28,643 bases of DNA from Allobrachymonas sp. Its GTDB lineage: Bacteria > Pseudomonadota > Gammaproteobacteria > Burkholderiales > Burkholderiaceae. The DNA lies in the NCBI GenBank assembly GCA_030529305.1, contig JAUMXD010000008.1, forward strand, positions 1 to 28,643, in the 5' to 3' direction. Each line of letters begins with the position of its first letter. Position 1 is the first letter of the stretch. Positions 1-12,736 of this stretch are shown here, piece by piece. The notes beneath the pieces are model-generated. The model did not search any database. It was not told the origin of the DNA and was given only the letters and a program-made list of their open reading frames with translations. A program made the translations under genes and the position numbers.

Positions 1-91
1 GTTCATCCATCCCGCTTTCCTGGCTCTCATCCCAAAAAGATCTTGAACAGGTTCTTAGAGCGTACAGCCTATTTTTTTAAGAAAAGGTACA

Positions 92-120
92 TTCGAAGCA
101 AAGAGCAGAGCCGTTACAAT
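92..120 (+). promoter_or_regulatory. possible promoter of the split tRNA-Ser
   Basis: A TACAAT -10-like hexamer at 115-120 lies 17 bp after a poor -35-like TTCGAA at 92-97, about 28 bp before the tRNA 5' half. If real, it is the original chromosomal tRNA promoter, and it would now read through the orphan 5' half into the complete tRNA-Ser at 304. The -35 match is weak, so this is only suggestive. Confidence 0.3.
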
Positions 121-147
121 CTCTGCTTCTTGAGCAAGCAATGGTTT

Positions 148-186
148 GGAAAAGTGGCAGAGCGGTTGATTACACCGGTCTTGAAA
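148..186 (+). pseudogene. 5' half of an interrupted tRNA-Ser(UGA)
   Basis: The sequence reads as a tRNA-Ser 5' half: acceptor strand GGAAAAG (148-154), TG, a D-arm (157-173), anticodon stem CCGGT (175-179) and loop CTTGAAA (180-186) with anticodon TGA. No variable arm, T-arm or CCA follows. Its missing half is at 9591-9646: CCGGT pairs with the ACTGG there, and the acceptor strand pairs with CGCTTCC at five of seven positions. The two acceptor mismatches and a weakened D-stem suggest decay since the split. It is inferred to be the chromosomal side of the left attachment site. Confidence 0.75.
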
Positions 187-191
187 GCTGG
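180..191 (+). repeat. attL core
   Basis: CTTGAAAGCTGG at 180-191 matches CTTGAAAACTGG at 9591-9602 in 11 of 12 positions, and the flanks diverge on both sides. The repeat spans the anticodon loop and 3' anticodon stem of tRNA-Ser, a usual crossover region for tyrosine integrases. With the integrase gene next to the distal copy, this is best read as the left attachment core. Confidence 0.65.
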
Positions 192-303
192 TGGTTTCTC
201 AACTAGGGGTTGGTTGAAAAGGGAATAAAAACAACGTGTTAGCGTTTTCTGCTTGTGTTCAACGGGGCACCGTTTAGCAGATTCATGGCACGTCACGAAA
301 TAC

Positions 304-393
304 GGTGGGTTGGCCGAGCGGTTGAAGGCACTAGTCTTGAAAACTAGCAAGGGGGCAACCCCTTCCAGGGTTCGAATCCCTGACCCACCGCCA
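304..393 (+). tRNA. tRNA-Ser(UGA), complete, inside the element
   Basis: A full class II tRNA: acceptor GGTGGGT (304-310) pairs with ACCCACC (383-389), anticodon stem CTAGT/ACTAG surrounds loop CTTGAAA with anticodon TGA at 338-340, there is a long variable arm, the T-arm is CAGGG-TTCGAAT-CCCTG (366-382), then discriminator G and an encoded CCA (391-393). Its stems differ from those of the interrupted chromosomal tRNA-Ser, so it is not a simple duplicate. It lies 112 bp inside the left core and probably supplies the UGA-anticodon serine tRNA that the insertion destroyed. No convincing promoter of its own was seen. Confidence 0.97.
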
Positions 394-446
394 TCACTAC
401 AAGAAGCAGGACGCAAACCGGCTGATCGGATTCGTTAGGGGCAGCG

Positions 447-1286
447 ATGTTTAATCTCTTGATGTTCAACGTCGATTGGCCGTCAGGCCGTGTCACCGTC
501 CCGATGGGGCGGATGTTTGAATACACCGATGACCACATCACCGAGCAGTTCCGCGAAGGCGGCAACCCCCTGCTAGATCGCCTCATTGAGCTGCCGTGCT
601 TGTTCTGCGAGGAAGGCACGACGGACGAAACCGCTTATGTCGGCCAGATCAACCGAGCACGCATCGTCGGCAGAGATGTGTCTCTCAAAATCAGCATCGA
701 CGCAGAAGTGCCCCCACTTCAGAACAGCATGATTCACGCGAACCGGGCAGAGCTGCACATGCCCCATGACTTCGAGTTCTCGCGGAACCATTGGGCCATC
801 AAGGACGTCGATCTTTACCGCTTCCTACTGCGCAACGTACGCCCTCGCAGGCAGCGCCCGACCGTGTTCCAGATACCTGAGCATGAAAACATCGAGCCGA
901 CCCTAGCGTCAGCAATGATGCCCTTCGATGCCGGGTTCAACCCGGTCTATGACGCAATTCGGCAAGCCGCTGACAATGCGGGTCTGCGTTGCAGGCGAGC
1001 CGATGACATTTGGGAGAACGCTGCGATCATTCAGGACGTGGTTGCCCTGATCGACCGCTCTCGAATCGTGGTGTGCGACTGCTCTGCTCGGAATCCGAAC
1101 GTATTCTACGAAGCTGGCATTGCGCACACGCTTGGGCGTGAGGCGATTCTTATCACGCAGAGCGAGCACGATATTCCCTTCGATCTTCGGCACCTTCGCT
1201 ATATCCGTTACCACAACAACGGCGAAGGGCGTGCAGCGCTGACGCAAGCGCTACAGGCAAGAATGCAGACATTACTCGGACACTAG
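447..1286 (+). CDS. TIR-like / nucleoside deoxyribosyltransferase-fold protein
   Basis: A 279-residue protein. The C-terminal half (about 155-258) has the pattern of TIR-like and nucleoside deoxyribosyltransferase-like domains: MMPFD at 157-161, RADDIWE around 184-190, then DCSARNPNVFYEAG at 211-224, with Glu222 in the place of the catalytic glutamate of these N-glycosidases, and an ILITQ strand near 234. Such domains hydrolyse nucleotides or NAD, and many are anti-phage effectors. Residues 1-150 form a domain I do not recognise, possibly a sensor. The ATG at 447 is preceded by AGGGG at a 5-nt spacing. It is the first protein gene inside the element and likely cargo. A defence role is inferred from fold and context only. 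Confidence 0.8.
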   Translation: MFNLLMFNVDWPSGRVTVPMGRMFEYTDDHITEQFREGGNPLLDRLIELPCLFCEEGTTDETAYVGQINRARIVGRDVSLKISIDAEVPPLQNSMIHANRAELHMPHDFEFSRNHWAIKDVDLYRFLLRNVRPRRQRPTVFQIPEHENIEPTLASAMMPFDAGFNPVYDAIRQAADNAGLRCRRADDIWENAAIIQDVVALIDRSRIVVCDCSARNPNVFYEAGIAHTLGREAILITQSEHDIPFDLRHLRYIRYHNNGEGRAALTQALQARMQTLLGH

Positions 1287-1289
1287 AAA

Positions 1290-1305
1290 TTCGGGCGTGC
1301 CCGAA
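1290..1305 (+). terminator. small hairpin after the TIR-like gene
   Basis: TTCGGGC and GCCCGAA form a 7-bp perfect stem with a 2-nt loop (really a longer loop with fewer pairs), starting 3 nt after the stop codon. No T-run follows, so it may be a weak terminator or a 3'-end protecting hairpin. Confidence 0.3.
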
Positions 1306-1531
1306 AATATCTAGCGACAACAACAGCTTGCAAAGACTGCCGCAAGCGTTTTACAGTTACCCCTAACACACCTCGCCTCTCCGTCACGTCGCGCAATGCG
1401 CCGGGGCGGATCAACGAAAAGTGCTGCATGGACAAATGGCAGGCAACTGGCATCGGTAACGCGATGCGGTTCGCTCACCGACTGCCCTTTTTGCATCTGC
1501 GCATCGGTGGGCATGCTTAGAGGCACTGCCC

Positions 1532-1804
1532 ATGCAAGCCGACACCCTGACCTCCGAGCAGCTTTGCTCGGTCTTCAACTACACCCCCAAGAACCGCCCG
1601 CTTAGCACCGACGAGGTTGCTGACTTTCTCGGTGTTGCCCGCAACACGCTGGAGCAGCACCGCCTCAAGGGCACCGGCCCGCGCTACCTCCAGCCCCCGG
1701 GCACCCGTCGCGTCTGGTACTCGGAGCGCGACATGCTGGCGTGGCTCGCTTCCGGCGCGCGCAACAGCACCAGCCAACAGCCGGGCGACGCCCTGTGCAT
1801 CTAG
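1532..1804 (+). CDS. AlpA/excisionase-type helix-turn-helix protein
   Basis: A 90-residue protein with a MerR-like winged helix-turn-helix of the AlpA/HTH_17 type. LSTDEVADFLGVARNTLEQHR (about 24-44) is the helix pair, followed by GPRYLQPPGTRRVWYSERDM, which is the usual 'xxxG.R.RY...D...WL' continuation ending at WLAS. In satellites and prophages such proteins activate integrase or act as recombination directionality factors. Here it sits just upstream of the replication gene at the opposite end from the integrase. The start ATG follows a weak GAGG-like site. The role in excision is an inference from family and position. Confidence 0.8.
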   Translation: MQADTLTSEQLCSVFNYTPKNRPLSTDEVADFLGVARNTLEQHRLKGTGPRYLQPPGTRRVWYSERDMLAWLASGARNSTSQQPGDALCI

Positions 1805-1837
1805 CCGACCGCCAAACACAGAAAACGGTGGTCGCCC

Positions 1838-2014
1838 ATGCCCAAACAGAACGCACGCGCGGCGCGCGCTCCTGTTGCGTCAGCGCCGTCTAGCCCACTT
1901 GCAGCCAATCGACAAAAAAGCGGCGGGGTCTGCACACCGCTGCCGCTTCAAGAGGACGAATATGAATCAACGCGAAGGCATGGTAGGACAGCGCTCGCCA
2001 GCCATACAAGATGA
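1838..2014 (+). CDS. possible 58-residue basic peptide
   Basis: An ATG at 1838 opens 58 codons in a frame different from the genes on both sides, overlapping the first 53 bp of the replication gene. The product is Ala/Arg-rich at its N-terminus (MPKQNARAARAPVAS) with no motif I recognise and only a poor ribosome site. It may be a coupled leader or may be chance reading. Confidence 0.2.
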   Translation: MPKQNARAARAPVASAPSSPLAANRQKSGGVCTPLPLQEDEYESTRRHGRTALASHTR

Positions 2015-3593
2015 CATGCTACGGCGCTTCGATCCCGACGACGCCGACTGGTACATCATGCAGTGCGCCTTTGATGCTGGGCTAGACCCGCATAAGACTG
2101 TGCGCAGCGTGCGCACGGCACAGGCCAAGGGGGTAAGCACTGGCGCGGTGCCGATCGTGGCCCCTGCCGCTGCTGCGGGGCCAGCGCCCGCACTGCCTGC
2201 CCCGGCTTTCGGTTGGCCGCCCGGTATCGCAGGAGAAGTTGCGCGCTTTGTGTATCAAGCCGCGCCGCGTCCAGTGCCCGAGGTCGCCGTGGCGGCATCA
2301 CTGGGATTGCTCGCGGGTATCTGTGGCCGACGCTGGGTCGCTCCCGGATCCTCAGGCCTCAATCTCTACATCATGCTTGTGGCACGTAGCGCTATTGGCA
2401 AGGAGGCTATGCACAAGGGCATCGGAACGCTTGTGCGCGCCATGTGCATGAAGCTGCCGACAGCAGGCAATCACGTCGCATTCGACAACTTTGCATCAGG
2501 ACCAGCATTGCTCAAGTTCGTCGCCACGAACCCTTGCTTCGTCAACGTCGTCGGGGAGTTCGGCAAGAAGTTTGAAAAGATGGCATCGGATAAGGAAGGC
2601 CCGCACTCCACGCTGCGCACGGAGTTGACGAACCTGTATCAAAAATCGGGGCCGGGTTCGGTTGCAGGCGGTATCGCCTACTCGAACAAAGACAACAATG
2701 CGCGGGTCAGTACGGACGTGGCCTATAGCCTGCTGGGCGAGACAACACCGGGCACCTTCTTCGAGTCCATTACCCCAAGCACGATGTCCGACGGCTTCAT
2801 GTCACGATTTACGGTTATCGAATACGACGGTGAGCGCCCGCCGAGGAACATGCACCAAGTCTCCACGCCCAGCGACGCGCTTATCAACTCGCTCGTATCC
2901 CTGGCAGGGCTGGCGCTCGATTGGGACTCGCGGAACATTTACGAGCTTGTTGGACTGACCCAAGATGCCCAGCGCGCTTATGACGCATTCGAGGATAGGT
3001 GCGACGACAAGATCAAAGAGGCTGGGGCCGATGAGTCGCGCAGGCAGGTATGGAACCGCGCTGCGTTGAAGGTGTTGCGCAGCGCCTGCTTGCTGGCAGC
3101 GGCAGATAACCCGACACATCCCCGTGTGACGACCGAGCACTTCGGCTGGGCGATTGGTCTGGTTGAGCGCGACATTGCGCTATTCCTCAACCGTCTCGAC
3201 AGCGGTGACATTGGTACGGATGACCACGCGCGGGAGCAGAAGGTCTTGGACGTGTGCCGTCGATTCTTGACGCAGGAAAAGGTCGCGGAACGCTACGAAA
3301 AGTCCTTTGAGAGCATGCGCCTCAACTCGATTGTGCCTCGCGCCTACCTGCAAACCATGACACAGAAACTTGCCCAGTTCGGAGGTCACAAGTTCGGCGC
3401 AACATCCGCACTCGACTTGACGCTGCGCAGTCTTATTGCTGCCAGCAATCTGATGGAGGTAGACAAGAGCAAGGTTGGCGAAGGCTACAACTACCACGGC
3501 ACTGTGTACCGCGTTCTTCGATTCGACTTCTCTAAGCAAGGCGAAGAATCGAAGGCGGCGATAAGGACAGCTATGAGCTTCTGGAAGGATTAG
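1962..3593 (+). CDS. DUF3987 family replication/primase-helicase-like protein
   Basis: 543 residues. The middle and C-terminal part matches the DUF3987 (YfjI-like) pattern found in prophage, satellite and plasmid replication modules. There is a P-loop-like ARSAIGKE at 141-148 and an acidic strand FVNVVGEFG at 193-201 in the Walker B position, then a region with GETTPGTFFESI and a helical C-terminus. An Ala/Pro-rich linker (about 64-84) separates a short N-terminal domain. I chose ATG 1962 because AGAGGA lies just upstream; the open frame continues further upstream but overlaps the AlpA-type gene. It probably acts in replication of the excised element, with the repeat cluster just downstream as a possible target. 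Family call is good, biochemical role inferred. Confidence 0.75.
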   Translation: MNQREGMVGQRSPAIQDDMLRRFDPDDADWYIMQCAFDAGLDPHKTVRSVRTAQAKGVSTGAVPIVAPAAAAGPAPALPAPAFGWPPGIAGEVARFVYQAAPRPVPEVAVAASLGLLAGICGRRWVAPGSSGLNLYIMLVARSAIGKEAMHKGIGTLVRAMCMKLPTAGNHVAFDNFASGPALLKFVATNPCFVNVVGEFGKKFEKMASDKEGPHSTLRTELTNLYQKSGPGSVAGGIAYSNKDNNARVSTDVAYSLLGETTPGTFFESITPSTMSDGFMSRFTVIEYDGERPPRNMHQVSTPSDALINSLVSLAGLALDWDSRNIYELVGLTQDAQRAYDAFEDRCDDKIKEAGADESRRQVWNRAALKVLRSACLLAAADNPTHPRVTTEHFGWAIGLVERDIALFLNRLDSGDIGTDDHAREQKVLDVCRRFLTQEKVAERYEKSFESMRLNSIVPRAYLQTMTQKLAQFGGHKFGATSALDLTLRSLIAASNLMEVDKSKVGEGYNYHGTVYRVLRFDFSKQGEESKAAIRTAMSFWKD

Positions 3594-3940
3594 ATAACCA
3601 CACCATGCAAGTGCCCTAGTACGCAATAGTGGCGGGGCCACTAACGCCACAAACCCTTACGCAGCAAGGCTTTACATACAGAAAAGTAGTTGTTGTTAGT
3701 GCGTTAGTGCGAGGGTGTATGTGTAAGAGGGCATTGGGGCATTAGGGGGGTTGGCACGACCCCGACTAACGAACTTACGCCACTATTGCGCTAACGCCTT
3801 GCACATCAGTTCAGCCGAACGCCAATTTCCATATTTGCTGTTCGGTTGCCTGCAAGTCCGCATAGGCTCTGGGCGCGTGCCCGCGCGTGGTCAGCCCGCC
3901 TAGCCCATGCGTAGCGACAGCCGACTTTCGCCGTGCTCGC
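3594..3940. other. intergenic candidate replication origin of the element
   Basis: No gene is seen in these 347 bp between convergent genes. The segment holds five copies of an approximately 10-bp repeat (3639-3798), a 12-bp inverted repeat CGCAATAGTGGC at 3622-3633 with its complement at 3779-3790, and a tandem GGCATT(G/A)GGG. This is the kind of organisation expected of an origin or a replication-protein binding region. Confidence 0.45.
3639..3798. repeat. iteron-like repeats, consensus CACTAACGCC
   Basis: Copies: CACTAACGCC at 3639-3648 (+), CACTAACAAC at 3692-3701 (-), CACTAACGCA at 3700-3709 (-), GACTAACGAA at 3764-3773 (+), CGCTAACGCC at 3789-3798 (+). The set is bracketed by the arms of a 12-bp inverted repeat. 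Spacing is irregular, unlike classical plasmid iterons. Confidence 0.5.
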
Positions 3941-4633
3941 TCAAGCCTGCTTCGTCGCTTCTAGGTCGGTGTCATTCGCCTCAATCCAGCTTTCCAGCTT
4001 TTCCATGAACGCAGGCCACACGTCGTTGTATTCGTGATGGAACGTACTCATGCACAACTCCATAGACCCGAGGTGGCGGTCGCCGTACAACTCCATCCAT
4101 CGGTTAGAGAAGTGCGTCTCATACTCGCTGTGGTCAATCTTCGAGTAACCGGCAACCATGCCTTCGTAATTCGGATGGGCGCTCTCGGACAGGATGCCGT
4201 AGAGCTTTGCGATGCCGGGATACCGCTTATCGCACTTCTCAAGCACCGTCATGATGTTGACGGACTGGTGTTCCGTCGAGCCATCCCGCGAGCCGAGCAG
4301 CAGCGTGGCCGTCTTGTCACTGAAGGCATGAAAGCTCAACTTGCCATCTAGCACCTGCTGCATGAGCTGATTGAGGTAGATCAGCGTGGCAAGCGACTCG
4401 AACCCGCTTCGCAGCAGAATGCGCGCACCCAAGCCGTGCCCCTGCTGATGCAAGGCATAGGATTGAGTCATCAAGTCGTTGAGGTGCCAGAACACAGCCT
4501 TGCGCAGCATCCAGACCCGAAAGGTCGCCTTCCATTTGTACGCGACAGGGTTACGGGACAGCAGACCGCCAACCGGAATGCTTGATAAGAGCGAATCCTT
4601 CCAATTGGCGAGGTTCTGTTCGACGGCGTTCAT
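3941..4633 (-). CDS. DUF5677-like protein, possibly HEPN-type
   Basis: 230 residues, mostly helical by composition. It has RILLRSGFESLATLIYL (about 71-87) and later LSESAHPNYEG (about 148-158), a pairing I associate with DUF5677-like proteins. The arginine plus conserved histidine recall HEPN RNases, but a canonical Rx4-6H motif is not clear. The start at 4633 is favoured by AGGGA four bases upstream; a longer reading to 4705 would run into the terminator of the preceding gene. Neighbouring replication and defence-like genes make an accessory or abortive-infection role possible. Function is not established. Confidence 0.7.
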   Translation of the reverse strand: MNAVEQNLANWKDSLLSSIPVGGLLSRNPVAYKWKATFRVWMLRKAVFWHLNDLMTQSYALHQQGHGLGARILLRSGFESLATLIYLNQLMQQVLDGKLSFHAFSDKTATLLLGSRDGSTEHQSVNIMTVLEKCDKRYPGIAKLYGILSESAHPNYEGMVAGYSKIDHSEYETHFSNRWMELYGDRHLGSMELCMSTFHHEYNDVWPAFMEKLESWIEANDTDLEATKQA

Positions 4634-4694
4634 GGTGTCCCTGATATTCGTTTCTTTGATAATAAATCGAAGCGCCATCTCCCGCACAAACGAA

Positions 4695-4716
4695 AAGCGC
4701 CCCATGCGGGGCGCTT
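4695..4716 (-). terminator. rho-independent terminator for the Ala-rich gene
   Basis: AAGCGCCCC and GGGGCGCTT form a 9-bp stem with a 4-nt loop. On the minus strand it is followed by TTTTCGTTT. It lies 25 bp after the stop of the gene at 4741-5217. Confidence 0.75.
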
Positions 4717-4740
4717 ACGTGCCGAACAGATGCTAGGCGG

Positions 4741-5217
4741 CTACTTCGCGGCAGCCCGTGACAGGCCCATGAACTTGCGCCAGCCGTACAGTTCGATCAG
4801 GGCGTTGTTCTCGTTCCAGCCCTTTTCAGCGGCGACCGGCTTCAAGTCCTTCGGCTGCATGTTGCCGTGCTGGTCGAGGTATTCCCACGCAGCAGCGCAA
4901 GCGCCACCAGCGCGCGGGCGCTTCACGTCGTTGCGTTCCTCGCGCGGCACCTTCGGCGCTGCTGCCTGCTTGGGCTTGCTTGTGGTCACCACATGCGCGG
5001 CAGCAGGGGCCGCTACAGGCTCGCTTTCGGTAGCGGTCGCCGCTGGGGTATTGGCGGCACCCTGCGCAGCGCTTGCAGCGGCGTCCTTCGCCTTCCAGCC
5101 AAAGCGCACGCCCTCCGCATCCTTGTGAACGGTGATCTCCACCAGCTCCGCGGGCACCCCTGCGGCGATGGCTGCGCGCTTGGCGTTCTCGCGCTTCGTG
5201 TCGGTCTTGGCGGTCAT
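4741..5217 (-). CDS. Ala-rich protein of unknown function
   Basis: 158 residues in three parts: a basic N-terminus (MTAKTDTKRENAKRAAI) with a short motif KDAEGVRFGWKAKDA, an Ala/Thr/Pro linker of about 50 residues, and a conserved-looking C-terminal domain, AWEYLDQHGNMQPKDLKPVA, then GWNENNALIELYGWRKFMGL. The last part looks like a small helical, possibly nucleic-acid-binding, domain, but I cannot name it. The start at 5217 is set by GGAG seven bases upstream. It has its own terminator and faces away from the next operon across a 234-bp divergent region, where it could be a regulator. That is only a positional hint. Confidence 0.65.
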   Translation of the reverse strand: MTAKTDTKRENAKRAAIAAGVPAELVEITVHKDAEGVRFGWKAKDAAASAAQGAANTPAATATESEPVAAPAAAHVVTTSKPKQAAAPKVPREERNDVKRPRAGGACAAAWEYLDQHGNMQPKDLKPVAAEKGWNENNALIELYGWRKFMGLSRAAAK

Positions 5218-5451
5218 ATCGTTGCTCCTGTGCGGGTTGAAGGAGGCACATTGCAAGACAGGTCTCCGACGACCGGCAACGACTTTTTGGATGTGTCAAA
5301 GCAAAGCGACAAACAGCTTATTTACTGTTCTTCGTTTGCTCTTGAACTGTAGTGCGTTGTTTTAAAACTGTTTTCCTTGCGGACCTTCGTTGATCTTTCG
5401 CAGCATGCAAGCACATGCGCAGCCGCGCCGCGAAATCAAAGGAGTTTCATC
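5218..5451. promoter_or_regulatory. divergent promoter region
   Basis: 234 bp between the minus-strand Ala-rich gene and the plus-strand operon starting at 5452. It is more AT-rich than its surroundings (especially 5300-5390), as expected for promoters in both directions. I see no confident -35/-10 pair; TTGAAC at 5342-5347 is a possible plus-strand -35. A strong ribosome site GGAG lies at 5441-5444. Confidence 0.4.
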
Positions 5452-6165
5452 ATGCCCACGCCGGTTGATATTCGTATCACGCCTTCTCTGCACACCGACA
5501 CCTTGAAGGAGGTGGACGGCTACGATGAGGAACTTACCGCCCCCATTCTTGCCCCCGCGCTCGAAGCGCTGGACGACGCCTATATCACGCTTGGCAAGCT
5601 GCACGACGCACGCGGTGCAGCGAAGAAGAACCAAGCATGGACGGAAGGCCAGCAGGTGCTTGCCGTATCCGATGCCGCTTGGAAGCAACAGCAGCGCCTT
5701 GCCAAGAAGTTGGACAACGTGCGCGTCACGTTGGAAAAGCAGATCGCCCATTTCGAGGGTGAGCTGTCGCAGCCCTTGGAGTCGCGCGCTGCGGTGACGA
5801 TCTCCGGCTAGGTGCGGAAGTTCGTCAAGGACATGCCGACCGAGAAGCGCCACGAGTTCTTGCGGCAGGCAATCGAGGATGGAGACCACGTCACTATCAG
5901 CGCAGTATGCGGCGCGCCTCCGTACCTGTCCGGCCTCGATGCGAACTTCCAGAAGACCTACACCCGCATGTGGCACGAGCGCACCTCGCCTGACTTGGCG
6001 CAGAAGCTGAAAGCGGTGCGCGGTGCCAAGGCCGTCATCGAACAGTGTGGCGCACTGATCTTCAAGGAGGTTGAGAAGGCAATGGGCGCCCCGTGGACGC
6101 GCGTGCAGGCTCTTCGTGAAGGCAATGACAAGGCTCTGGCCGCGCTCAAGTTCGACGGTCAGTGA
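5452..6165 (+). pseudogene. gene split by an in-frame amber codon
   Basis: An open frame from ATG 5452 (GGAG seven bases upstream) gives 119 residues, ending in RAAVTISG, then TAG at 5809-5811. The same frame continues at once with VRKFVKDMPTEKRHEFLRQ for another 117 residues to 6165, including GAPPYLSGLDANF. Both halves read as one globular protein of about 237 residues. A single G-to-T change in GAG, restoring Glu before VRKF, would rejoin them. Alternatively the second half may be made from the GTG at 5812 by coupled re-initiation. I do not recognise the family; similar proteins occur in prophage-like gene trains. It begins an operon with the DUF5681 gene. Confidence 0.65.
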
Positions 6166-6206
6166 GCACCGCTGCTGATCCTCTGCAAACAACAAGAGGT
6201 GAAAAC

Positions 6207-6668
6207 ATGGCGGAAGTTGAATCGCCTGAATGGATGAAAGGCTTCGTGCCCCAGCCCAACAAGCCGCCGCGTGGCTGGCAGCCCGGACAGTCGGGAAACC
6301 CGGCAGGTCGTCCGAAGGGCAGCAAGAACCGCAAGACGCTGCTCGCCGAGGAACTGCAAAAGGACGGTTCCGATCTTGCGCGCGCCATCAAGGAAGCTGC
6401 GCTCGCGGGCGACACCAGCGCCATGAACCTATGGGCGCAGCGACTTGAGCCACCGCTGCGCGCACGCGCTGCCGCTGTCGGGTTTGAGCTAGACCCTGAA
6501 AAGCCCCTGCACGAGCAGGCGCAGCAGGTGCTCGCAGCGGTATCCGAAGGGCGCGTTGACCCCGAAACCGGGCGAATGCTGATCGACTGCATCCAGTCGG
6601 TCGCGGGCATCCGTGCCGTTGATGAACTGGAAGCGCACCTCGCCGCGCTGGAGGAAAAACAGGCATGA
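6207..6668 (+). CDS. DUF5681 protein, terminase-small-subunit-like
   Basis: 153 residues. The N-terminal GWQPGQSGNPAGRPKGSKNRKT (from about residue 22) is the DUF5681 signature, a Gly/Pro/Lys-rich DNA-contacting segment often placed at the start of phage small terminase-like proteins. A helical region follows, with a C-terminal tail AVDELEAHLAALEEKQA typical of a coiled helix. The start at 6207 is preceded by AGAGGTG; an upstream in-frame ATG at 6162 overlaps the previous gene. In a satellite such a protein could steer packaging, but there is no large terminase here. Its stop overlaps the next start (ATGA). Confidence 0.75.
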   Translation: MAEVESPEWMKGFVPQPNKPPRGWQPGQSGNPAGRPKGSKNRKTLLAEELQKDGSDLARAIKEAALAGDTSAMNLWAQRLEPPLRARAAAVGFELDPEKPLHEQAQQVLAAVSEGRVDPETGRMLIDCIQSVAGIRAVDELEAHLAALEEKQA

Positions 6669-6868
6669 GTATCGAAGACGCCGAATGCATCCCGCAGCAC
6701 GGCTGGCGGACTGTTCCCTTGAAGGACACACCGCAGGGGCAAGCCGATCTCAAGCTAATTGTGGCCGCTTGCTACGAGGCAATTCTGAAATGCGACGATC
6801 CCGCCGTGCGCTGGCAGGCCGCAAAACTCCTTCAACAGATCGGCCCACTGAAAGGAACGCTCCAATGA
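6665..6868 (+). CDS. small element protein, homologue of 12595-12736
   Basis: 67 residues. The first ATG overlaps the previous stop as ATGA, so translation is probably coupled. The C-terminal part (ADLKLIVAACYEAILKCDDPAVRWQAAKLLQQI) is helical and has a decayed relative in the second element remnant, with shared CDD...A.. spacing. No known domain is recognised. Conservation in two related elements shows that it is a real gene. Confidence 0.7.
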   Translation: MSIEDAECIPQHGWRTVPLKDTPQGQADLKLIVAACYEAILKCDDPAVRWQAAKLLQQIGPLKGTLQ

Positions 6869-7056
6869 AAAGCGACAACCTCGACCACGAGAACCGCCCC
6901 ATCAAGTATGGCGTCACGCCCGACGAACTGCAACAGATTCAGCAGCGCCGTATCGAAGCGCACGTGGAGCAGCAGGCAGCGGACACGCTGAACCTCGCCC
7001 GTGCGGTGAAGCTGGGGCAAGCCCTGAAACAACACGAGGAGGCATCACATGGTTGA
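6865..7056 (+). CDS. small element protein with KYGVTPDEL motif
   Basis: 63 residues, starting by ATGA overlap with the gene before. It contains ENRPIKYGVTPDELQQIQQRRIEAH, charged and probably a long helix. The same protein, 'ENRPVKYGITPDEL', is encoded at 12428-12598, where it is broken by a stop codon. The protein-level conservation supports coding. Function unknown. Confidence 0.75.
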   Translation: MKSDNLDHENRPIKYGVTPDELQQIQQRRIEAHVEQQAADTLNLARAVKLGQALKQHEEASHG

Positions 7057-7258
7057 ATGGCAGATCACCAGCACGAAGGACGTGCGCGACCGCGAGCGCT
7101 ACCAGATTGACCGCGCGGACGAACGCTACAGCCACCCGATGTGCATCTGCTCCTTGCACCCGTGCGTCCCTGAATACGTCGCGGAAGAAATCATGGCGCT
7201 ACTCATGAAGCGCATGAAAGACCGACTAGCGGCGCGTCCGGGTCGGCGGGAGCGCTGA
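7049..7258 (+). CDS. small Cys-containing element protein
   Basis: 69 residues, overlapping the preceding stop by 8 bp and preceded by a strong GGAGG. It has HPMCICSLHPCVPEYV (about 30-45), a Cys cluster that might bind metal, then a helical basic tail. No counterpart is present in the second remnant. Function unknown. Confidence 0.6.
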   Translation: MVEWQITSTKDVRDRERYQIDRADERYSHPMCICSLHPCVPEYVAEEIMALLMKRMKDRLAARPGRRER

Positions 7259-7262
7259 CCAC

Positions 7263-7487
7263 ATGAGCATCGGCAGCGCCAAGGGCATGCTGGCCCAACT
7301 CAAGAAGCTGGAACGCTCGAACACCGCCACAGACGAGCTGCGCCAGTGGGTCAGTGACACCTTCGGCGTAGCTATCGATGACGGTCGCATGTGCGGCATG
7401 GATGGCTCCGTGGTGCTGCGCTGCCTGCTCAACTGGATCAGCGACGGCACCGCTCGCGGCTATGCGGGCGAAGGGACGCTGCGATGA
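7263..7487 (+). CDS. small element protein, homologue of 12223-12423
   Basis: 74 residues. MSIGSAKGMLAQLKKLERSNTATDELRQW is followed by SDTFGVAIDDG and VLRCLLNWISDGTARGY. The copy at 12223-12423 is clearly homologous along its length, and many differences are conservative, so the gene is under or was recently under protein selection. Its TGA overlaps the next ATG. Role unknown; probably a helical DNA- or protein-binding factor. Confidence 0.75.
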   Translation: MSIGSAKGMLAQLKKLERSNTATDELRQWVSDTFGVAIDDGRMCGMDGSVVLRCLLNWISDGTARGYAGEGTLR

Positions 7488-7840
7488 ATGTCGAAGAGCC
7501 AGTGTGGTTACCAGCATGGCGCGAGGGAAAGCGTGCAGCACCGCAGCCCGTGCCCGCTCCAAAGCCGAAGCGCCCGCCGCCAGCCAAGCCCACAGCAAAG
7601 GCGAACTATCTTGGATTCGTCGAGCCGCAGCGCTGGCCGCAGGATGACGGGACACGGCGGGAACCCGTGCTTGATACTGACCACAAGCCGCCGCGCGTCG
7701 TGCGCTATGTCGGCTGGCGGCGGTGCATGTGCTGCGGCGTGTTGTTCTGGTCGCAGGACGTGCAACGCTTGCGCCTCTGTACCGGCGACGGTGTGAGCCG
7801 CCTTGGTTGCCGCTCACGGGACGACACAGACGGAATCTGA
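7484..7840 (+). CDS. putative zinc-binding element protein
   Basis: 118 residues, begun by ATGA overlap. A Pro/Ala/Lys-rich N-terminus (to about 45) leads to a conserved core: YLGFVEPQRWPQDDGTRREP, then VGWRRCMCCGVLFWSQDVQRLRLC and a final Cys in LGCRSR. The arrangement C-x2-C-x16-C with a further Cys nine residues on looks like a zinc-ribbon-like module. The core is conserved in the copy at 11960-12199, which keeps every cysteine of the pattern (CMRC...LRLC...GC). Last gene of the operon; probably nucleic-acid-binding, by inference. Confidence 0.75.
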   Translation: MNVEEPVWLPAWREGKRAAPQPVPAPKPKRPPPAKPTAKANYLGFVEPQRWPQDDGTRREPVLDTDHKPPRVVRYVGWRRCMCCGVLFWSQDVQRLRLCTGDGVSRLGCRSRDDTDGI

Positions 7841-8160
7841 AAAGCCCTGCGTCGGCTCGTCACCGTTGCAGCGGTGCCCGGATAACGAGAAGGCCGGGCC
7901 GTCCCAAAGCGAACCGTTGGACGTAAATCAAACGGGCGCAGTAGCGGGGACGTGCTGCTCCCACCTCCTGACGCTGCCTTCAACGGGTGCCGCATGGTGC
8001 CCGTTGTCGTGGCTGGGGCGGCACAGGCCGCGATCACCACACTGCCGCCGCCAGGGTACTGGCGAGCGCTGCGCGTGCGCTGTAGCCGCGTTTTTGCGGG
8101 CAAGCCGGGAACGCCAAACCCTGAATTAGTCGGCCACGACCGCTAAGAGCTTGCTGCGCT
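7841..8160 (+). ncRNA. conserved structured non-coding segment, copy A
   Basis: The segment between the last small gene and the integrase is conserved with 11630-11957. Shared blocks: AACCGTTGGACGTAAATC and onward (7912-7935, 24 identical bases), a hairpin at 7981-8006, AGGGTACTGGCGAGC (near 8055-8070), a GGAACG...TTAGTCGG segment (8107-8132) and CGCTAAGAGCTTGCTGC at 8141-8157. The hairpin has an 11-bp stem here with two G-T pairs that become Watson-Crick pairs in copy B, which points to an RNA structure. Reading frames across the two copies match only in pieces and shift, so coding is less likely. An RNA class named int-alpA has been reported near integrase and AlpA genes; membership was not tested. 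Confidence 0.5.
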
Positions 8161-8218
8161 GCCGGTTTGGTCGGCTGGGCCGGTTGCGGCGTAGCCCATT
8201 GGGAGCAGGGGCGGCGAT

Positions 8219-9427
8219 TCACGCCCGCAGCGCCACCACGTTCTCACCCGTTGCGACCGCTTCCGCGATCTTGCCCTGTTCGCTGATCCAGTCTCCGATG
8301 CGCTGCACTTCGGGGAGCAGGTATTGCAGGCGCGAGGTCTTGAGGTAGTGGCGGGCGGTCACGCCCTTGGGCACATGGTTCGTGAGCAGTTCCATCTTGT
8401 AGAGGTCGATGTCGCACACCGACACGCCCAGCGTTACGAACGTCCGGCGCAGGTCGTGCGGGGTGATCTTCCGACCGGCTGCCTCGCTGACCTTCTTCAT
8501 CATGTCGCGCGGGTCTTTGATGTGGCCCGTATCGCCCCATGACGGAAAGACGTGCGGATTGCCTTCGATGCGCTGGCGCGTGGTCAGCAGTTCCACCGCC
8601 TGCGACGACAAGGGTAGCCACACCGGGTTCCGATTCTTCGGGTCAGGGATGTGCCACCAGCAGTTTTCCGGGTCGTCCTTGTCGATGCTGACCCTGTCCC
8701 ATGTCAACGCGGACGCTTCGCCAATGCGCGCGCCGGTCAGCATGAGGAACATCACAAGGTCGATGCTTGACCACGTATCCCGGTTGTAGGCGTTCGCGCG
8801 TGCCTGCGTGAGCATGTGCCACACCGCGCCGACAGGGATGTGCAGGATGAGCGGGGTGCCGTCGTGTTTCTTGTACTGCCGACCGGCGTAGTTGATGAGA
8901 GCGCGAAGAACGCTGAACGCCTGATTGGCTTGGGCGGGTGCTGGCCCTTTGCCCGTGGTGCCTTTCGTCACGATCTCCCGGTAGCGCTTGCGGCAGTCGT
9001 CCTCGGTGATGGCGGCGATGGGCTTCTGTTCCCACGCCTTGAAGGTTGTAGTCACGTGGCGCTCAATCTCGGTCTTACTGCTGTCCTTGAGCTTGCCCGG
9101 ACGCCCCATGTAAGCGTCGGCCACCTGGCGCAGCGTTACCTTGGCCGCTTCGTTTGCCTTCTTCACGTCGCGCGGGTCGATGCCCTCGCGCATGTCCTGC
9201 AAGATGCGCCGCGCCTTCTCGCGCCCCTCGTATTCGGTGAGCTGCCCGTATGGACTAATCGTGAAGCAGACCGCTTTGCCTCTGACGCGCCCCTGAGCCA
9301 CGAACACGCGCTTGCCCGCAGCGGTGACGCGCAGCCCGTATCCCTTCAGCGCGTCGTCCCAATGAATCTCGTAGCCCGTCGCCGGTGCCTGCACCTTGTC
9401 GATGTAGGTCTTTGTCAATTTCGCCAT
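8219..9427 (-). CDS. int: P4-type tyrosine integrase
   Basis: 402 residues. The N-terminal Arm-binding (DUF4102-like) domain includes WDDALKGYGLRVTAAGKRVFV. A core-binding SAM-like domain follows (about 100-190), then the catalytic domain with Arg234 (TGARIGEASAL), His324-x2-Arg327 (PHDLRRTFVTLG), His351 and Tyr361 (ARHYLKT). All the catalytic residues are present, so the enzyme looks intact. The start at 9427 is preceded by GGGGG; an in-frame ATG 54 bp upstream is possible but less fitting to the family. It lies 164 bp from the right attachment core and points inward. It should catalyse insertion into the tRNA-Ser anticodon-loop site, with the AlpA-type protein a candidate regulator. Confidence 0.95.
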   Translation of the reverse strand: MAKLTKTYIDKVQAPATGYEIHWDDALKGYGLRVTAAGKRVFVAQGRVRGKAVCFTISPYGQLTEYEGREKARRILQDMREGIDPRDVKKANEAAKVTLRQVADAYMGRPGKLKDSSKTEIERHVTTTFKAWEQKPIAAITEDDCRKRYREIVTKGTTGKGPAPAQANQAFSVLRALINYAGRQYKKHDGTPLILHIPVGAVWHMLTQARANAYNRDTWSSIDLVMFLMLTGARIGEASALTWDRVSIDKDDPENCWWHIPDPKNRNPVWLPLSSQAVELLTTRQRIEGNPHVFPSWGDTGHIKDPRDMMKKVSEAAGRKITPHDLRRTFVTLGVSVCDIDLYKMELLTNHVPKGVTARHYLKTSRLQYLLPEVQRIGDWISEQGKIAEAVATGENVVALRA

Positions 9428-9590
9428 GTCGTCAGCCCCCAGAAGCGCGCTTTTTAGCGCATGTTTAGCAATGTGGGGCACGTTACGACAAGCTACGCCA
9501 AACGCGCAATGACGATAAGTCGTTGATTCATAAAGGTTGTTATGGCTAAATAAAGCTGCTTCTAGCTAGGCCAAAACGAGCTGGGGTAAA

Positions 9591-9602
9591 CTTGAAAACT
9601 GG
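9591..9602 (+). repeat. attR core
   Basis: CTTGAAAACTGG, the partner of the left core with one mismatch. It also matches 11 of 12 bases inside the element's own tRNA-Ser (336-347). Just upstream (9545-9585) short AGCT-containing repeats could be integrase arm sites. Confidence 0.65.
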
Positions 9603-9646
9603 CGATCCGCGAGGATCCGTGAGTTCGAATCTCACCGCTTCCGCCA
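9591..9646 (+). pseudogene. 3' half of the interrupted tRNA-Ser(UGA)
   Basis: It begins at the anticodon loop CTTGAAA and continues with the 3' anticodon stem ACTGG, a variable arm, T-arm GTGAG-TTCGAAT-CTCAC (9619-9635), acceptor strand CGCTTCC (9636-9642), G and an encoded CCA (9644-9646). The bases before it do not continue a tRNA, so the 5' part is missing; that part lies at 148-186. Unlike the 5' half, this one shows no obvious decay. The chromosomal tRNA terminator follows at 9706. Confidence 0.85.
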
Positions 9647-9705
9647 ATAAAAACAAGCGCTTAGCTTAGTTTGGTGGGCATGCAAAGAGCTTGTGAAAAA
9701 CGATG

Positions 9706-9733
9706 AAAGCCCCGCTAGTCGGGGCTTTCTTCT
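9706..9733 (+). terminator. terminator of the original tRNA-Ser
   Basis: AAAGCCCC and GGGGCTTT form an 8-bp stem with a 7-nt loop, followed by CTTCTT. It lies 60 bp after the tRNA 3' end and marks chromosomal (non-element) DNA to the right of the insertion. Confidence 0.8.
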
Positions 9734-9761
9734 TGGCGGCGAATTTGTACCCCGTAAGCAT

Positions 9762-9794
9762 ACCATAAGCGAGCGGTGGCGCTTACAGTATGGT
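9762..9794 (+). promoter_or_regulatory. inverted repeat upstream of the methyltransferase
   Basis: TAAGCG (9766-9771) and CGCTTA (9780-9785) face each other across 8 bp. Outer arms ACCAT (9762-9766) and ATGGT (9790-9794) extend the symmetry with a small offset. It lies about 70 bp before the methyltransferase start and may be an operator; no controller gene is seen nearby. Confidence 0.35.
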
Positions 9795-9861
9795 CGTGTA
9801 CAGGTAGCTGGCTTGCGTCCTATGCTTGGGCCAATGTTGCAGGCTAAATAATGGAGTGATG

Positions 9862-10791
9862 ATGTTCCCGAAAAGTGTTGTGCCCAAAGCCCCTCCCATC
9901 AAGACGCAAGGGATCAAGACAAAACTCACGCCCATGATCGCAGCCAGCATTCGATGGGACGGTCAAGGACGATGGATTGAACCGTTTATTGGCTCAGGGG
10001 CAGTTGCCTTGAATCTTGCCCCTAGGCGTGCGCTCCTTGCTGACACGAACAAACACCTCATCAATTTCTACAAGGGAGTGCAGTCGGGGGCAATTACGGG
10101 CGACTCTGCGCGTCGGTTCCTTGAGATCGAAGGGCAGCGACTCTTGGAGGTAGGTGAAGATCACTTCTACTTCATTCGAGAGCGATTCAATAATGAAGGG
10201 AGTCCGCTCGACTTCCTGTTTCTAAGTCGTGCTTGCTTTAACGGCGTTATGCGCTTCAACTCGAAGGGACGTTTCAACGTGCCTTTCTGCCGGAAGCCGG
10301 AACGCTTTCGTCAGGCCCTGATTACGAAGATCGCCAATCAGATTGATTGGGCAGCAAGTGTTATGAAGGGCAAAGACTGGGAATTTGTAGTGCAGTCGTG
10401 GCAAGAGACAATCGAGGCTGCACAGCGGGGTGACATGATTTACTGCGACCCGCCCTATGTCGGTCGTCATACCGACTATTACAACGGCTTCACTGATGAA
10501 GAAGCGGACGCGATGGCCCTTGCGTTAATCAATTGCGATGCTGATTTTGCGCTCTCAATGTGGCTTGAAAATAAGTACCGCAAGAACGAGTACCTAGCTC
10601 GCTGGTTTGCAGGCTATCCGATGGAAACCACGTCGCACTTCTATCACGTCGGTTCTAGCGAAGAACTTCGTAACGAAATGACTGAAGCGCTTGTGGTCTC
10701 CCACGGTGCAGCAGTTATCGAGAAGGTCGAACTTACTCCCAGCGTTTCAGACCTTCCGCTCTTTCAGAGCACGGAATCCCTGAATGTCTGA
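9862..10791 (+). CDS. EcoRV-type adenine-N6 DNA methyltransferase (D12 class)
   Basis: 309 residues, strongly resembling M.EcoRV from memory: PPIKTQGIKTKL near the N-terminus, motif I EPFIGSGAV (40-48, SAM binding), ERFNNEGSPLDFLFLSRACFNG, FNSKGRFNVPFCRKPERF and catalytic motif IV DPPY at 196-199, then HFYHVGSSE near the end. It should methylate the first adenine of GATATC and protect host DNA from the paired nuclease. The start at 9862 is chosen for GGAG five bases upstream and the family's N-terminus; a TTG at 9826 would add unneeded residues. It converges on the nuclease gene with a 45-bp overlap. It lies outside the integrase-bounded element. Confidence 0.95.
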   Translation: MFPKSVVPKAPPIKTQGIKTKLTPMIAASIRWDGQGRWIEPFIGSGAVALNLAPRRALLADTNKHLINFYKGVQSGAITGDSARRFLEIEGQRLLEVGEDHFYFIRERFNNEGSPLDFLFLSRACFNGVMRFNSKGRFNVPFCRKPERFRQALITKIANQIDWAASVMKGKDWEFVVQSWQETIEAAQRGDMIYCDPPYVGRHTDYYNGFTDEEADAMALALINCDADFALSMWLENKYRKNEYLARWFAGYPMETTSHFYHVGSSEELRNEMTEALVVSHGAAVIEKVELTPSVSDLPLFQSTESLNV

Positions 10792-11490
10792 AAAATCTGT
10801 CCGCTCTCCCTTCGTGCGCCCATAACCACGCCAGTATTCAAGGAACTCATCTTCCGACTTGAACGGCCCTGCGCCGTTACGGAATTCATTAATCGTACCG
10901 TTGATGCTGCCAATGTTCGTCGTGTTGCCGCTACCTGCCCGGTCGCTGGCGACACGCCATTTTTCCTGAACGAAGAACTCCACGTTCGAGAACGGAAGGG
11001 GGATCTCTGCAAGCTGATCGACTTTATAGAGATGTTCAGCGCCAGCCTTCTTCTGTGCGACTCGGTTATAGACAAAACCGATAACCCAGTGCTCCGTGTA
11101 GTCTCCGAAGGGGAATACGATGTTCTTCTTCTCGTTTCCCTCACGGATGAAGCTGGTATATCCGCCTAGCGTGTAGCTAAATCTGTCGCCGTCGCTGATG
11201 CGGTACGTCGTCTTCACATCAACTGCAATTTTCTGTTTGCAGTTAGGTCCCGTGCAGAGGGTGAAGTCCGGGTAGTGGTTCTGCACCGTAGGCTCGATAA
11301 CTTGCAATCTCAGCTTCTTGGCTGCCGCATATACTGCTGGCCGACTTACCAGTTCAAAAATGGTGCTAAGAACCTTTGTGTCGGCTCCAAGCGGATACAC
11401 GGCTCCGGCCCTATCAATGATTCCGCAGACTTCGTAGCTACCCTGAAGCTTGCTAAGTTCAGCTTCCAGCACTTCTTTTATACCTGCCAT
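10747..11490 (-). CDS. EcoRV-type type II restriction endonuclease
   Basis: 247 residues with near-collinear similarity to R.EcoRV recalled from memory. YEVCGII, YPLGADTKVLSTIFEL, QNHYPDFTL, IAVDVKTTY, FTLGGYTSFIR-like TLGGYTSFIR, and AGSGNTTNIGS all recur at the same spacing. Counting Met1, Asp75, Asp91 and Lys93 correspond to the EcoRV metal-binding residues Asp74, Asp90 and Lys92. The AGSGNTTN segment is the base-contacting recognition loop. The predicted target is therefore GATATC, cut bluntly. The start at 11490 follows GAGGGAG; a reading from 11520 lacks support. The gene lies just downstream of the second element remnant and tail to tail with its methyltransferase. Confidence 0.96.
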   Translation of the reverse strand: MAGIKEVLEAELSKLQGSYEVCGIIDRAGAVYPLGADTKVLSTIFELVSRPAVYAAAKKLRLQVIEPTVQNHYPDFTLCTGPNCKQKIAVDVKTTYRISDGDRFSYTLGGYTSFIREGNEKKNIVFPFGDYTEHWVIGFVYNRVAQKKAGAEHLYKVDQLAEIPLPFSNVEFFVQEKWRVASDRAGSGNTTNIGSINGTINEFRNGAGPFKSEDEFLEYWRGYGRTKGERTDFSDIQGFRALKERKV

Positions 11491-11629
11491 GCTCCCTCGC
11501 TCAAGAAATATGCAGCACACTCTGATGCCAATTTCTTGATCCTACCATCGGGGCATAATGTTCGGAAAGAGTGCAGGTCTGTTTACGCTGTACTTATGCC
11601 TTGCGGGGGTTGCCGACCTAACCACAGTG

Positions 11630-11957
11630 GCAGCAAGCTCTTAGCGGGCAAGCCCGAATAACTCCGTGTTTGTCGTTCCTTGCCCGCTGGCATGCGCGCC
11701 GCTACAAGCCGCGTGCCGTGCTCGCCAGTACCCTAGGTGGTGATCGTCGCCCCAGCCGCCCGCAGCGCTCGCGCAGCCGTGCAAACGACAACGGGTGCCA
11801 GCGGCACCCGTTGAAGGCCAGGTCGCACGGGTAGGAGCGGCCCCGTTCCTGGCTGAGTCCGTTTGATTTACGTCCAACGGTTTTCGATGGGACGGCGCAG
11901 CTTCTTCGGGATTGCGCGCCACTGCACCGCGGACGACGATAAGGGCGGTGCAGGGTT
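11630..11957 (-). ncRNA. conserved structured non-coding segment, copy B
   Basis: Counterpart of 7841-8160 on the other strand. The 24-base identical block is at 11859-11882 and the hairpin at 11789-11813, whose 11-bp stem is fully Watson-Crick here. A second stem is clear in this copy: AGCGGGCAAG pairs with CTTGCCCGCT around a loop resembling that of copy A. The segment ends with the shared GCAGCAAGCTCTTAGCG at 11630-11646. Its upkeep in a remnant whose small genes are decaying is notable. Confidence 0.5.
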
Positions 11958-11959
11958 TT

Positions 11960-12199
11960 TCAGATGCCGTCGTTTTGCCTGCTCCTGCATCCTTGCTTGT
12001 TGGGTTGGGAGCTGCAAAGGCGCAAGCGCTGCACATCCTCAGTCCAAAAGAAGTGACCGCATCGCATGCACTTGTTCCTCCCTACACGGCGAACGACACG
12101 GGGCCGGTCACTGTTCATGTCTAGTAAGGGTTCGCGTCGTGCGCCTCCATCCTGTGGCCACATGCGCGGCTCAACGAAGCCTTGGAAATTCGGCTTCAT
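11960..12199 (-). CDS. zinc-binding core protein, remnant copy
   Basis: 79 residues from ATG 12199: MKPNFQGFVEPRMWPQDGG, then CMRCGHFFWTEDVQRLRLC and GCRSRQNDG. It matches the C-terminal core of the protein at 7484-7840 and keeps its cysteines but lacks the Pro-rich N-terminus. The start position corresponds to the upstream gene's end in the other copy. It may still be functional, though its operon partners are damaged. Confidence 0.65.
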   Translation of the reverse strand: MKPNFQGFVEPRMWPQDGGARREPLLDMNSDRPRVVRRVGRNKCMRCGHFFWTEDVQRLRLCSSQPNKQGCRSRQNDGI

Positions 12200-12222
12200 C
12201 GCAGCAGGCCCCAGCCAGCAGT

Positions 12223-12423
12223 TCAGGCGCGAGCGGTGCCGTCGTCGATCCAATTCAACACGCAATGCCGCACCACAGGGCCATCAACCGGGAACATGCA
12301 ACCGTCCGCAATGGCAGCGCTGAGCATGTCACTGACCCAGCCGCGCATCTCGTCGGTCGCACCTTGCGAGCGTTCCAAGTGCTTGAGGCGGGCTAGCACG
12401 CCTTTGGCGCTGCTGACGCTCAT
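12223..12423 (-). CDS. small element protein, remnant copy of 7263-7487
   Basis: 66 residues: MSVSSAKGVLARLKHLERS, TDEMRGWVSDML and VVRHCVLNWIDDGTARA. It is similar to the 7263-7487 product throughout but ends eight residues earlier. The frame is intact. Function unknown. Confidence 0.65.
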   Translation of the reverse strand: MSVSSAKGVLARLKHLERSQGATDEMRGWVSDMLSAAIADGCMFPVDGPVVRHCVLNWIDDGTARA

Positions 12424-12427
12424 GTGG

Positions 12428-12598
12428 TTACTCGCGCAACGCAGCGCCCAGCTTGAAAGCGCGGAGCAGGTTCAGCGCTTCGTCAGTCTCGCGGTCTGCT
12501 TGCGCCTCGATTCGGCGCTGCTGAATCTGTTACAGCTCGTCGGGCGTGATGCCGTACTTGACCGGGCGGTTCTCTTGGTCTGGGTTGTCATTCTTCAT
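12428..12598 (-). pseudogene. KYG.TPDEL protein broken by a stop codon
   Basis: From ATG 12598, MKNDNPDQENRPVKYGITPDEL is followed by TAA (12530-12532) where the intact copy has CAA (Gln). The frame then continues QIQQRRIEAQADRETDEALNLLRAFKLG to 12428. A single C-to-T change explains the break. The ATG overlaps the stop of the preceding gene fragment, as in the intact copy. Confidence 0.75.
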
Positions 12599-12736
12599 TT
12601 CCCACTCCTTGACCAAAGGCTGTTCTCGGCGTGTCGAAGAAACTGCGCCGCGTGAAAGTACACCTCTGAATCGTCGCAGTTGCGAATCACATCAAGGCAG
12701 TGTTGCACTTGTTGCGTCGTAGTCAGCCTGCATCTG
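12595..12736 (-). pseudogene. 5'-truncated homologue of the 6665-6868 gene
   Basis: The frame ending at TGA 12595 reads VQHCLDVIRNCDDSEVYFHAAQ and onward, alignable with the C-terminal half of the 6665-6868 product. Upstream similarity stops near 12736 where the DNA becomes AT-rich, and no start codon or ribosome site is present. The left edge of the remnant therefore cuts this gene. Confidence 0.55.

Follow-up and report, generated by a model that had tools for sequence, protein, structure and literature searches.

A genomic island of Allobrachymonas sp. that splits a tRNA-Ser(UGA) gene at the anticodon loop and carries a complete tRNA-Ser(UGA) of its own

The split tRNA gene and its junctions

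The stretch of Allobrachymonas sp. DNA analysed here (contig JAUMXD010000008.1, 28,643 nt; hereafter the window) contains a 9.4-kb genomic island of the integrase/AlpA/primase type, which is located between the two halves of a tRNA-Ser(UGA) gene. The orphan 5' half (positions 148–186, plus strand; 87% identity to a typed native-type tRNA-Ser(UGA) probe) is partly decayed and ends in the heptamer CTTGAAA (180–186), which forms the left junction. The right junction lies 9,411 bp further on, where the segment 9591–9646 (plus strand; 93% identity to the same probe) opens with CTTGAAA and continues as the 3' half with CCA. The two junctions have in common only this 7-bp core (180–186 and 9591–9597), i.e. 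the anticodon-loop heptamer. Just inside the left end, a complete and different tRNA-Ser(UGA) with the acceptor GGTGGGT/ACCCACC is encoded at 304–393 on the plus strand, in the direction of the split gene. This cargo tRNA is 98% identical to the cargo tRNAs of three related loci (L160, L197, and L198; L and G numbers denote loci and genomes, respectively). It is preceded by the 117-nt left end of the element (187–303, plus strand), the final 33 nt of which represent a conserved leader.

The cargo gene was the sole tRNA identified in the window both by ARAGORN and by an Rfam scan at the gathering threshold (tRNA-Ser(tga), 59.3 bits; cut-off, 29). ARAGORN called no tRNA at either junction of the window or of the related locus L156, both of which contain the 7-bp CTTGAAA core. 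When 148–186 and 9598–9646 were joined, ARAGORN called a tRNA-Ser(tga). These data confirm the initial annotation of this DNA, which had described two halves of one gene cut at the anticodon loop and a complete tRNA with the same anticodon inside the left end; the distance of 112 bp given there is corrected to 117 nt from the core. The decay of the orphan 5' half was likewise correctly recognized, but the pairing of its acceptor strand with that of the 3' half is better than had been stated, with five of the seven pairs remaining.

Contiguous sites, recurrence, and decay in related genomes

The closest match to the RsmG protein of the window was found in the metagenome-assembled genome (MAG) Brachymonas sp. 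S15M_Sa_29 (L001 in genome G001; 77% identity), with which the aligned DNA stretches of the window are 76–94% identical. The genus, now Allobrachymonas, is assigned to the Comamonadaceae by NCBI. The family referred to below is that of G001, represented by samples of 60 and 399 genomes. At E ≤ 1e-3, the joined halves were matched in 56 of the 60 family genomes, and by a hand count from the match table the match covers at least positions 13–88 of the 88 in 53 genomes; only partial matches were obtained in G001, G048, and G051, and none in G018, G019, G042, and G045. The best match showed 90% identity over all 88 nt. Three of the 53 matches are themselves cargo copies (G025, G028, and G038). All of the 30 best loci, the only ones among these matches in which the anticodon was checked, contain a complete tRNA-Ser(UGA), two being cargo copies (L141 and L149). 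Contiguous, i.e. empty, sites expected by the initial annotation are thus present in relatives. In addition, the left flanks of 8 of 15 element loci (L157, L158, L199, L200, L202, L211, L214, and L215) match those of contiguous tRNA-Ser(UGA) loci.

The probable counterpart of the window locus in G001 is L082, which shows a weak similarity to the window upstream of the tRNA (79.5% identity over 44 nt including the -10 hexamer; E = 0.014). This locus contains a 17-nt remnant of the 5' half, the same left end as the window, and a tRNA-Ser(UGA) of the GGTGGGT type, followed by other cargo and a different right flank. Two neighbourhoods were rejected as guides to the empty site. The rsmG-mnmG region of L001 contains no tRNA, so the right side of the window differs from that of G001. 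A gene flanking L082 (3865–4794) has matches in 59 of the 60 genomes, but among the 30 loci kept only L096, which is G001 itself, has a tRNA nearby, and this neighbourhood is hence not a general one. The right neighbourhood of the window (9647–13810, encoding a thioesterase, RsmG, and MnmG) and that of the G001 tRNA locus (an exbB-like open reading frame (ORF), recognized by eye) differ, and a rearrangement in either the window or G001 probably lies behind this difference.

The arrangement of core, gap, and complete tRNA-Ser(UGA) was identified in at least 16 of the 399 family genomes, with six types of cargo tRNA distinguished by eye; this number is a lower bound because other gap lengths were outside the search. 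The left end including the tRNA was found at E ≤ 3e-34 in seven of the 399 genomes, whereas the remaining 21 of the 28 left-end matches cover essentially the tRNA part, one of them being the cargo of G113. A pattern consisting of the core, a gap of 8–38 nt, and a tRNA-Ser start was found in eight of the 399 genomes (reversed control pattern, 0), and G038, with a gap of 128 nt, was added from the 60-genome search. BLAST detected the orphan 5' half in 9 of 11 relatives; in the remaining two (L197 and L198), and in five further relatives, it was recognized by eye. Both halves are present on one contig in the window, L156, L160, L201, and L202, while in G038 and G243 the 3' half sits on a separate contig. 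The islands are 9–16 kb in size, four of them containing an integrase. L160 (G048) is the minimal case, with 1.3 kb from the 5' half to the 3' half. In its orientation (9180–10495), the 5' half, the tRNA, one trypsin-like PDC-S45 gene, and the 3' half follow each other, and no integrase of this clade was found there; the cassette may represent a decayed element or be mobilized in trans.

Complete tRNA-Ser(UGA) genes were counted with the pattern CTTGAAA-N22..46-GTTCGAATC, which is blind to genes with an unusual loop. Each of the 16 relatives yielded one complete tRNA-Ser(UGA), the cargo copy; the second pattern match in G028, G048, G366, G113, G038, and G243 is the orphan 3' half. Two controls with a contiguous gene, G017 and G026, contain one tRNA-Ser(UGA) each. 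The cargo tRNA is also better conserved than its surroundings. In the 36 pairs formed by nine GGTGGGT-type loci, the mean identity is 94% for the tRNA, 76% for the 33-nt leader, 56% for the rest of the gap (shuffled baseline, 38%), and 48% for the 100 nt after the tRNA. The corresponding value for the orphan half is 60%, which includes the related element L217 (39 nt that are not a tRNA half) and becomes 63% without it (28 pairs, by hand).

Several stages of decay are found side by side. The acceptor stems of the joined halves retain seven of seven pairs in L156, L201, and L202, five in the window, and four in L160, and ARAGORN calls the joined halves as a tRNA in all five loci; the acceptor stems of the five cargo tRNAs are fully paired (7/7). 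In L082, L197, L198, and L215, the orphan half has been eroded or lost. The earlier proposal that the host could be locked into keeping the island is therefore visible in these four loci but is weaker for the window, where the joined gene is still recognized. The comparison between G365 and G026 represents the last stage. Their flanks are 93.6 and 93.4% identical and they share the same 5' half, after which G365 has nine nucleotides, a complete foreign tRNA-Ser(UGA), and then directly the shared right flank. This pair is best read as a finished swap, in which the element and the host 3' half are gone and the foreign tRNA has been retained. At about 1518–1741 of L211 (oriented; G243), serial tRNA-Ser-like fragments are followed by one complete tRNA-Ser(UGA), with the -10 hexamer kept before the first fragment; by eye, the series looks like repeated insertions at one site.

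Promoter use, proposed mechanism, and alternatives

The split gene of the window is preceded by a -10-like hexamer, TACAAT (115–120, plus strand), which is the probable promoter element for the cargo tRNA; a second hexamer, TACATT, is located at 88. In all 15 loci measured, the motif TANANT was found 10–66 nt before the first orphan half, and in L197 and L198, outside these 15, TAGAAT lies 167 and 169 nt before the cargo. Among the complete tRNA-Ser(UGA) loci, 26 of 30 (25 of 28 without the two cargo copies) have TANANT, compared with 205 of 6000 random segments. Eight loci have only 9–20 nt between the core and the cargo tRNA, a gap that is too short for a promoter, and the host tRNA promoter therefore most likely drives the cargo tRNA there. 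The window has a gap of 117 nt without a good -10 hexamer, and use of the host promoter by its cargo tRNA is plausible. Transcription from the original tRNA promoter, as suggested in the initial annotation, is thus well supported for the eight short-gap loci and plausible for the window.

Taken together, these features are in all likelihood explained by an island that replaces the tRNA-Ser(UGA) gene of its host by its own copy, with the split at CTTGAAA. This replacement, already proposed for the window, is borne out by the empty sites in relatives, by the recurrence of the architecture, and by the cargo copy being the only complete one in all 16 relatives. The tyrosine integrase would mediate recombination between the 7-bp core and the anticodon loop of the only tRNA-Ser(UGA) gene in the host. 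The attachment site of the element (attP) lacks any part of a tRNA from which the target could be restored, so that the host gene is destroyed on integration, with its 5' half remaining on the left and its 3' half on the right. Because the complete tRNA-Ser(UGA) of the element lies close to the left end and in the direction of the host gene, the same event would place the substitute behind the host promoter. The transcript would consist of the orphan half, the gap, and the tRNA, and would be processed by RNase P and 3' nucleases. We infer that the host would be viable only with the substitute tRNA, so that the element and the gene adjoining the tRNA would be tethered to it. Subsequent decay of the orphan halves, or deletion of the rest of the element, would leave the foreign tRNA as the sole tRNA-Ser(UGA). 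An altered anticodon stem of the cargo tRNA had also been considered as a shield against re-insertion; this idea was dropped, as the short-gap cargo tRNAs retain host-like stems.

Several observations weigh against parts of this explanation. A stringent scan found no sigma-70 site with a -35 hexamer in positions 1–460 of the window or 3850–4200 of L156, so the promoter assignment rests on the -10 hexamer and the geometry. TACACT lies 20 nt before the cargo tRNA of L158, which may have a promoter of its own, and weaker -10-like hexamers occur in the gaps of L157, L082, L200, and L197. For the orphan 5' half, BLAST gives no match in L197 and L198 and a match of just 17 nt in L082; this half shows erosion in L212 and L213, and in L211 its distance upstream is greater. 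The left flanks of 7 of the 15 element loci (L156, L160, L197, L198, L201, L212, and L213) match no contiguous locus among those compared. Within the stretches examined, an integrase of this clade was not seen in 13 of the 16 relatives, which would thus be remnants or have been moved by something else; it is present in the other three (G028, G366, and G113), one per complete element. The single copy in the window host is deduced from relatives, many of which are drafts or MAGs whose completeness is unstated. Finally, the 3' half in the window may come from the cargo tRNA of an older element rather than being native to the host.

This last point leads to the alternative that survives best, namely that elements are stacked here and that the tRNA split in the window was itself the cargo of an older element, the remnant of which lies at 9647–12599. 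An older related element did stand to the right of the 3' half. The segment 9607–9699 aligns over 96 nt, with 78% identity, to the terminal part of the L201 cargo tRNA and the 53 nt after it; 11612–12599 is an inverted copy of 6864–8175 inside the island (66–78% identity), and 11648–12574 is 85% identical to L217. Between these segments, 9826–11520 encodes an EcoRV-like restriction endonuclease (PF09233, 6.7e-54) adjoining a D12-type adenine methyltransferase, i.e. an EcoRV-like restriction-modification system. The serial fragments of L211, recognized by eye, would also suit repeated insertion. On the other hand, position 148 is not preceded by any recognizable older orphan 5' half, and the stem CCAGT of the decayed L082 5' half pairs, by eye, with ACTGG of the window, as is expected if the 3' half is native to the genus. 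We regard stacking as possible, although the odds are against it. As a separate observation, the internal block of the island is inverted relative to L217.

If the element tRNA were an optional extra and the host had another tRNA-Ser(UGA), a second complete copy would be expected, but none was found by pattern in the 16 relatives with this architecture, and the tRNA is 94% conserved against 48–76% for its surroundings; such redundancy is very unlikely. Islander relies on the signature of an island bounded by a complete tRNA on one side and by a tRNA 3' fragment on the other (PMC4383910, as excerpted), and L216, described below, may be such a case; but for the window, a canonical tRNA island, with 304–393 as the native gene that was restored on the left and 9591–9646 as its displaced 3' fragment, is the least credible reading of all and was rejected, because BLAST does not align the fragment with the complete tRNA (E ≤ 0.01), its acceptor CGCTTCC is unable to pair with GGTGGGT and its variable arm does not fit, an orphan 5' half is present upstream, and the contiguous genes of relatives resemble the joined halves.

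Island genes, related elements, and known systems

The gene adjoining the cargo tRNA (447–1286, plus strand) encodes a 279-amino-acid protein with a C-terminal TIR-like part (PADLOC TIR effector, 3.8e-8; no Pfam match) and is a candidate defence gene; a 91% identical copy adjoins the cargo tRNA in L157. It is followed by genes for an AlpA-like helix-turn-helix protein, an excisionase or regulator (1532–1804, plus strand; HTH_17, 1.5e-7; phrog_66, 2.4e-6), and a DUF3987 primase/helicase (1962–3593, plus strand; PF13148, 1.4e-14; phrog_3022, 5e-137). The segment 3941–7796 contains other element genes, encoding a protein with a weak DUF5677 match, proteins of 171, 144, and 117 amino acids, a DUF5681 protein, small ORFs, and a 102-amino-acid protein; L217 has homologues of the 171-, 144-, 117-, and 102-amino-acid proteins and of the DUF5681 protein. 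The 402-amino-acid tyrosine integrase (8219–9427, minus strand; PF00589 and PF13356; phrog_1, 7.7e-39) adjoins the right junction, a position that corrects the initial annotation, and is 57–62% identical to the integrases of L156, L201, and L202 (tblastn).

The module of integrase, AlpA-like regulator, and primase/helicase is also present in L156, L201, and L202. P4-like and phage-inducible chromosomal island (PICI)-like satellites presumably combine the same set of an integrase, an AlpA-like protein, and a primase with defence-like cargo, as the window island does; unlike in such satellites, no packaging gene was recognized among the proteins scanned from the window and from L156, L201, and L202. 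No virion gene was recognized among nine element proteins of the window in PHROGs (ORFs between 6668 and 8219 were outside the scan) or among 10 proteins representing a subset of the ORFs of L156, L201, and L202. In all six loci examined in this respect, the gene adjoining the tRNA matches a defence model: TIR-like in the window and L157, PDC-S45 trypsin-like in L160, PDC-S32 in L082 and L200 (the L200 gene also matching AbiJ_NTD4), and a type II methyltransferase in L156. Away from the tRNA, two of five L202 proteins scanned match PADLOC Hp1 and Hp2 and one matches a type IV restriction enzyme. These defence matches come from chosen proteins and do not amount to a census.

The integrases of the tRNA-Ser(UGA) clade are 54–91% identical in the comparisons made. 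The window integrase alone had no match in IMG/VR, whereas an alignment of four integrases retrieved three loci there. No near DNA match of window positions 1–12000 was found among phages and plasmids, and none of 120 phage and 337 plasmid records reached 60% identity to the L156 integrase, the best of the matches listed being 30.8% (phage) and 32.4% (plasmid). At the order level, 8 of 300 had an integrase at E ≤ 1e-50 (30–37% identity, tblastn), and in seven of these eight, L225 being the exception, the 3' end of some other tRNA adjoins the integrase by eye. In L216 (IMG/VR; integrase 78% identical to that of L156), the complete tRNA-Ser(UGA) and the right-hand 3' half are identical over 58 nt, and the contig begins 8 nt before the tRNA; this element is possibly a tRNA-restoring sister. 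L217/L229 is homologous to the window element and has a tRNA of the GGTGGGT type, but lacks a tRNA half at its left junction, to the left of which ORFs of phage-like appearance (by eye) are located; our guess is a tandem insertion. In L218, no tRNA or left end was recognized in the rest of the contig.

The logic proposed here is the same as that of tRNA-dependent lysogeny, which has been described for the actinobacteriophages Fionnbharth, LeBron, Gaia, and others, and whose authors thought cases outside actinobacteriophages plausible (PMC10865867). Both systems use a tyrosine integrase and an attB within a host tRNA gene, which in our case is deduced from sequence; a core too short to rebuild the tRNA (8–17 bp in Table 2 of PMC10865867 and 7 bp here); and an element tRNA of the same isotype that complements the loss, the candidates here being 304–393 and the cargo tRNAs of the 16 relatives. 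The target tRNA is single-copy, in our case by pattern in 16 of 16 relatives. The islands differ in that no virion gene was found among the proteins scanned, so that they do not qualify as temperate phages. In Fionnbharth, there is an overlap between the tRNA and gene 37, and the region upstream of the tRNA acts as a strong promoter (PMC10865867, as excerpted), whereas here the tRNA adjoins the left junction on its inner side and has the orientation of the host gene. The carriers described there are actinobacteriophages, whereas those described here are islands in the Brachymonas family that target tRNA-Ser(UGA) and decay leaving the tRNA swapped. Integration of vB_MloP_Lo5R7ANS-like prophages in Sinorhizobium meliloti also inactivates a tRNA gene for which a prophage isoacceptor copy can substitute (PMC11476347, as excerpted), as does that of the Lactobacillus johnsonii prophage Lj965 (as cited in PMC10865867). 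The S. meliloti case concerns prophages and tRNA-Leu(UAG), and neither promoter capture nor element loss after the swap appears in the available text of PMC11476347. Islander-type islands likewise have a tyrosine integrase and an anticodon-loop crossover but carry a tRNA fragment that restores the target (PMC4383910, as excerpted), whereas here a complete second gene is present and both halves are stranded, without restoration.

Among the matches listed from the open-licence PubMed Central literature, no title or abstract start describes this layout in islands. As far as these searches reach, four features are new: a carrier without recognized virion genes, the placement of the tRNA at the left junction and its orientation there, the probable use of the promoter of the destroyed gene, and the fixation of a foreign tRNA after element loss. 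The finding extends the principle behind tRNA-dependent lysogeny beyond phages, to small islands of a different phylum that encode defence-like genes. It presents side by side insertions with halves that still pair, eroding halves, and a finished swap without the element, and shows a route by which a foreign copy takes the place of a single-copy tRNA gene that is presumably essential. Software that looks for a restored tRNA together with its matching fragment may misinterpret islands of this kind, and an orphan tRNA half located ahead of a tRNA can be used as a marker of a past swap. The promoter-capture layout would make expression of the cargo conditional on integration. A further-reaching proposal, which we consider evenly balanced, is that the cargo tRNA, having no promoter of its own, is silent in the free element and is switched on when integration captures the promoter of the gene that it destroys, that defence islands are anchored in this way, and that the foreign copies outlive their elements in several percent of species. 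If this is true, integration would be self-checking, imprecise loss of the element would be impossible, and repeated rounds would have swapped the tRNA-Ser(UGA) genes of these several percent of species in the family.

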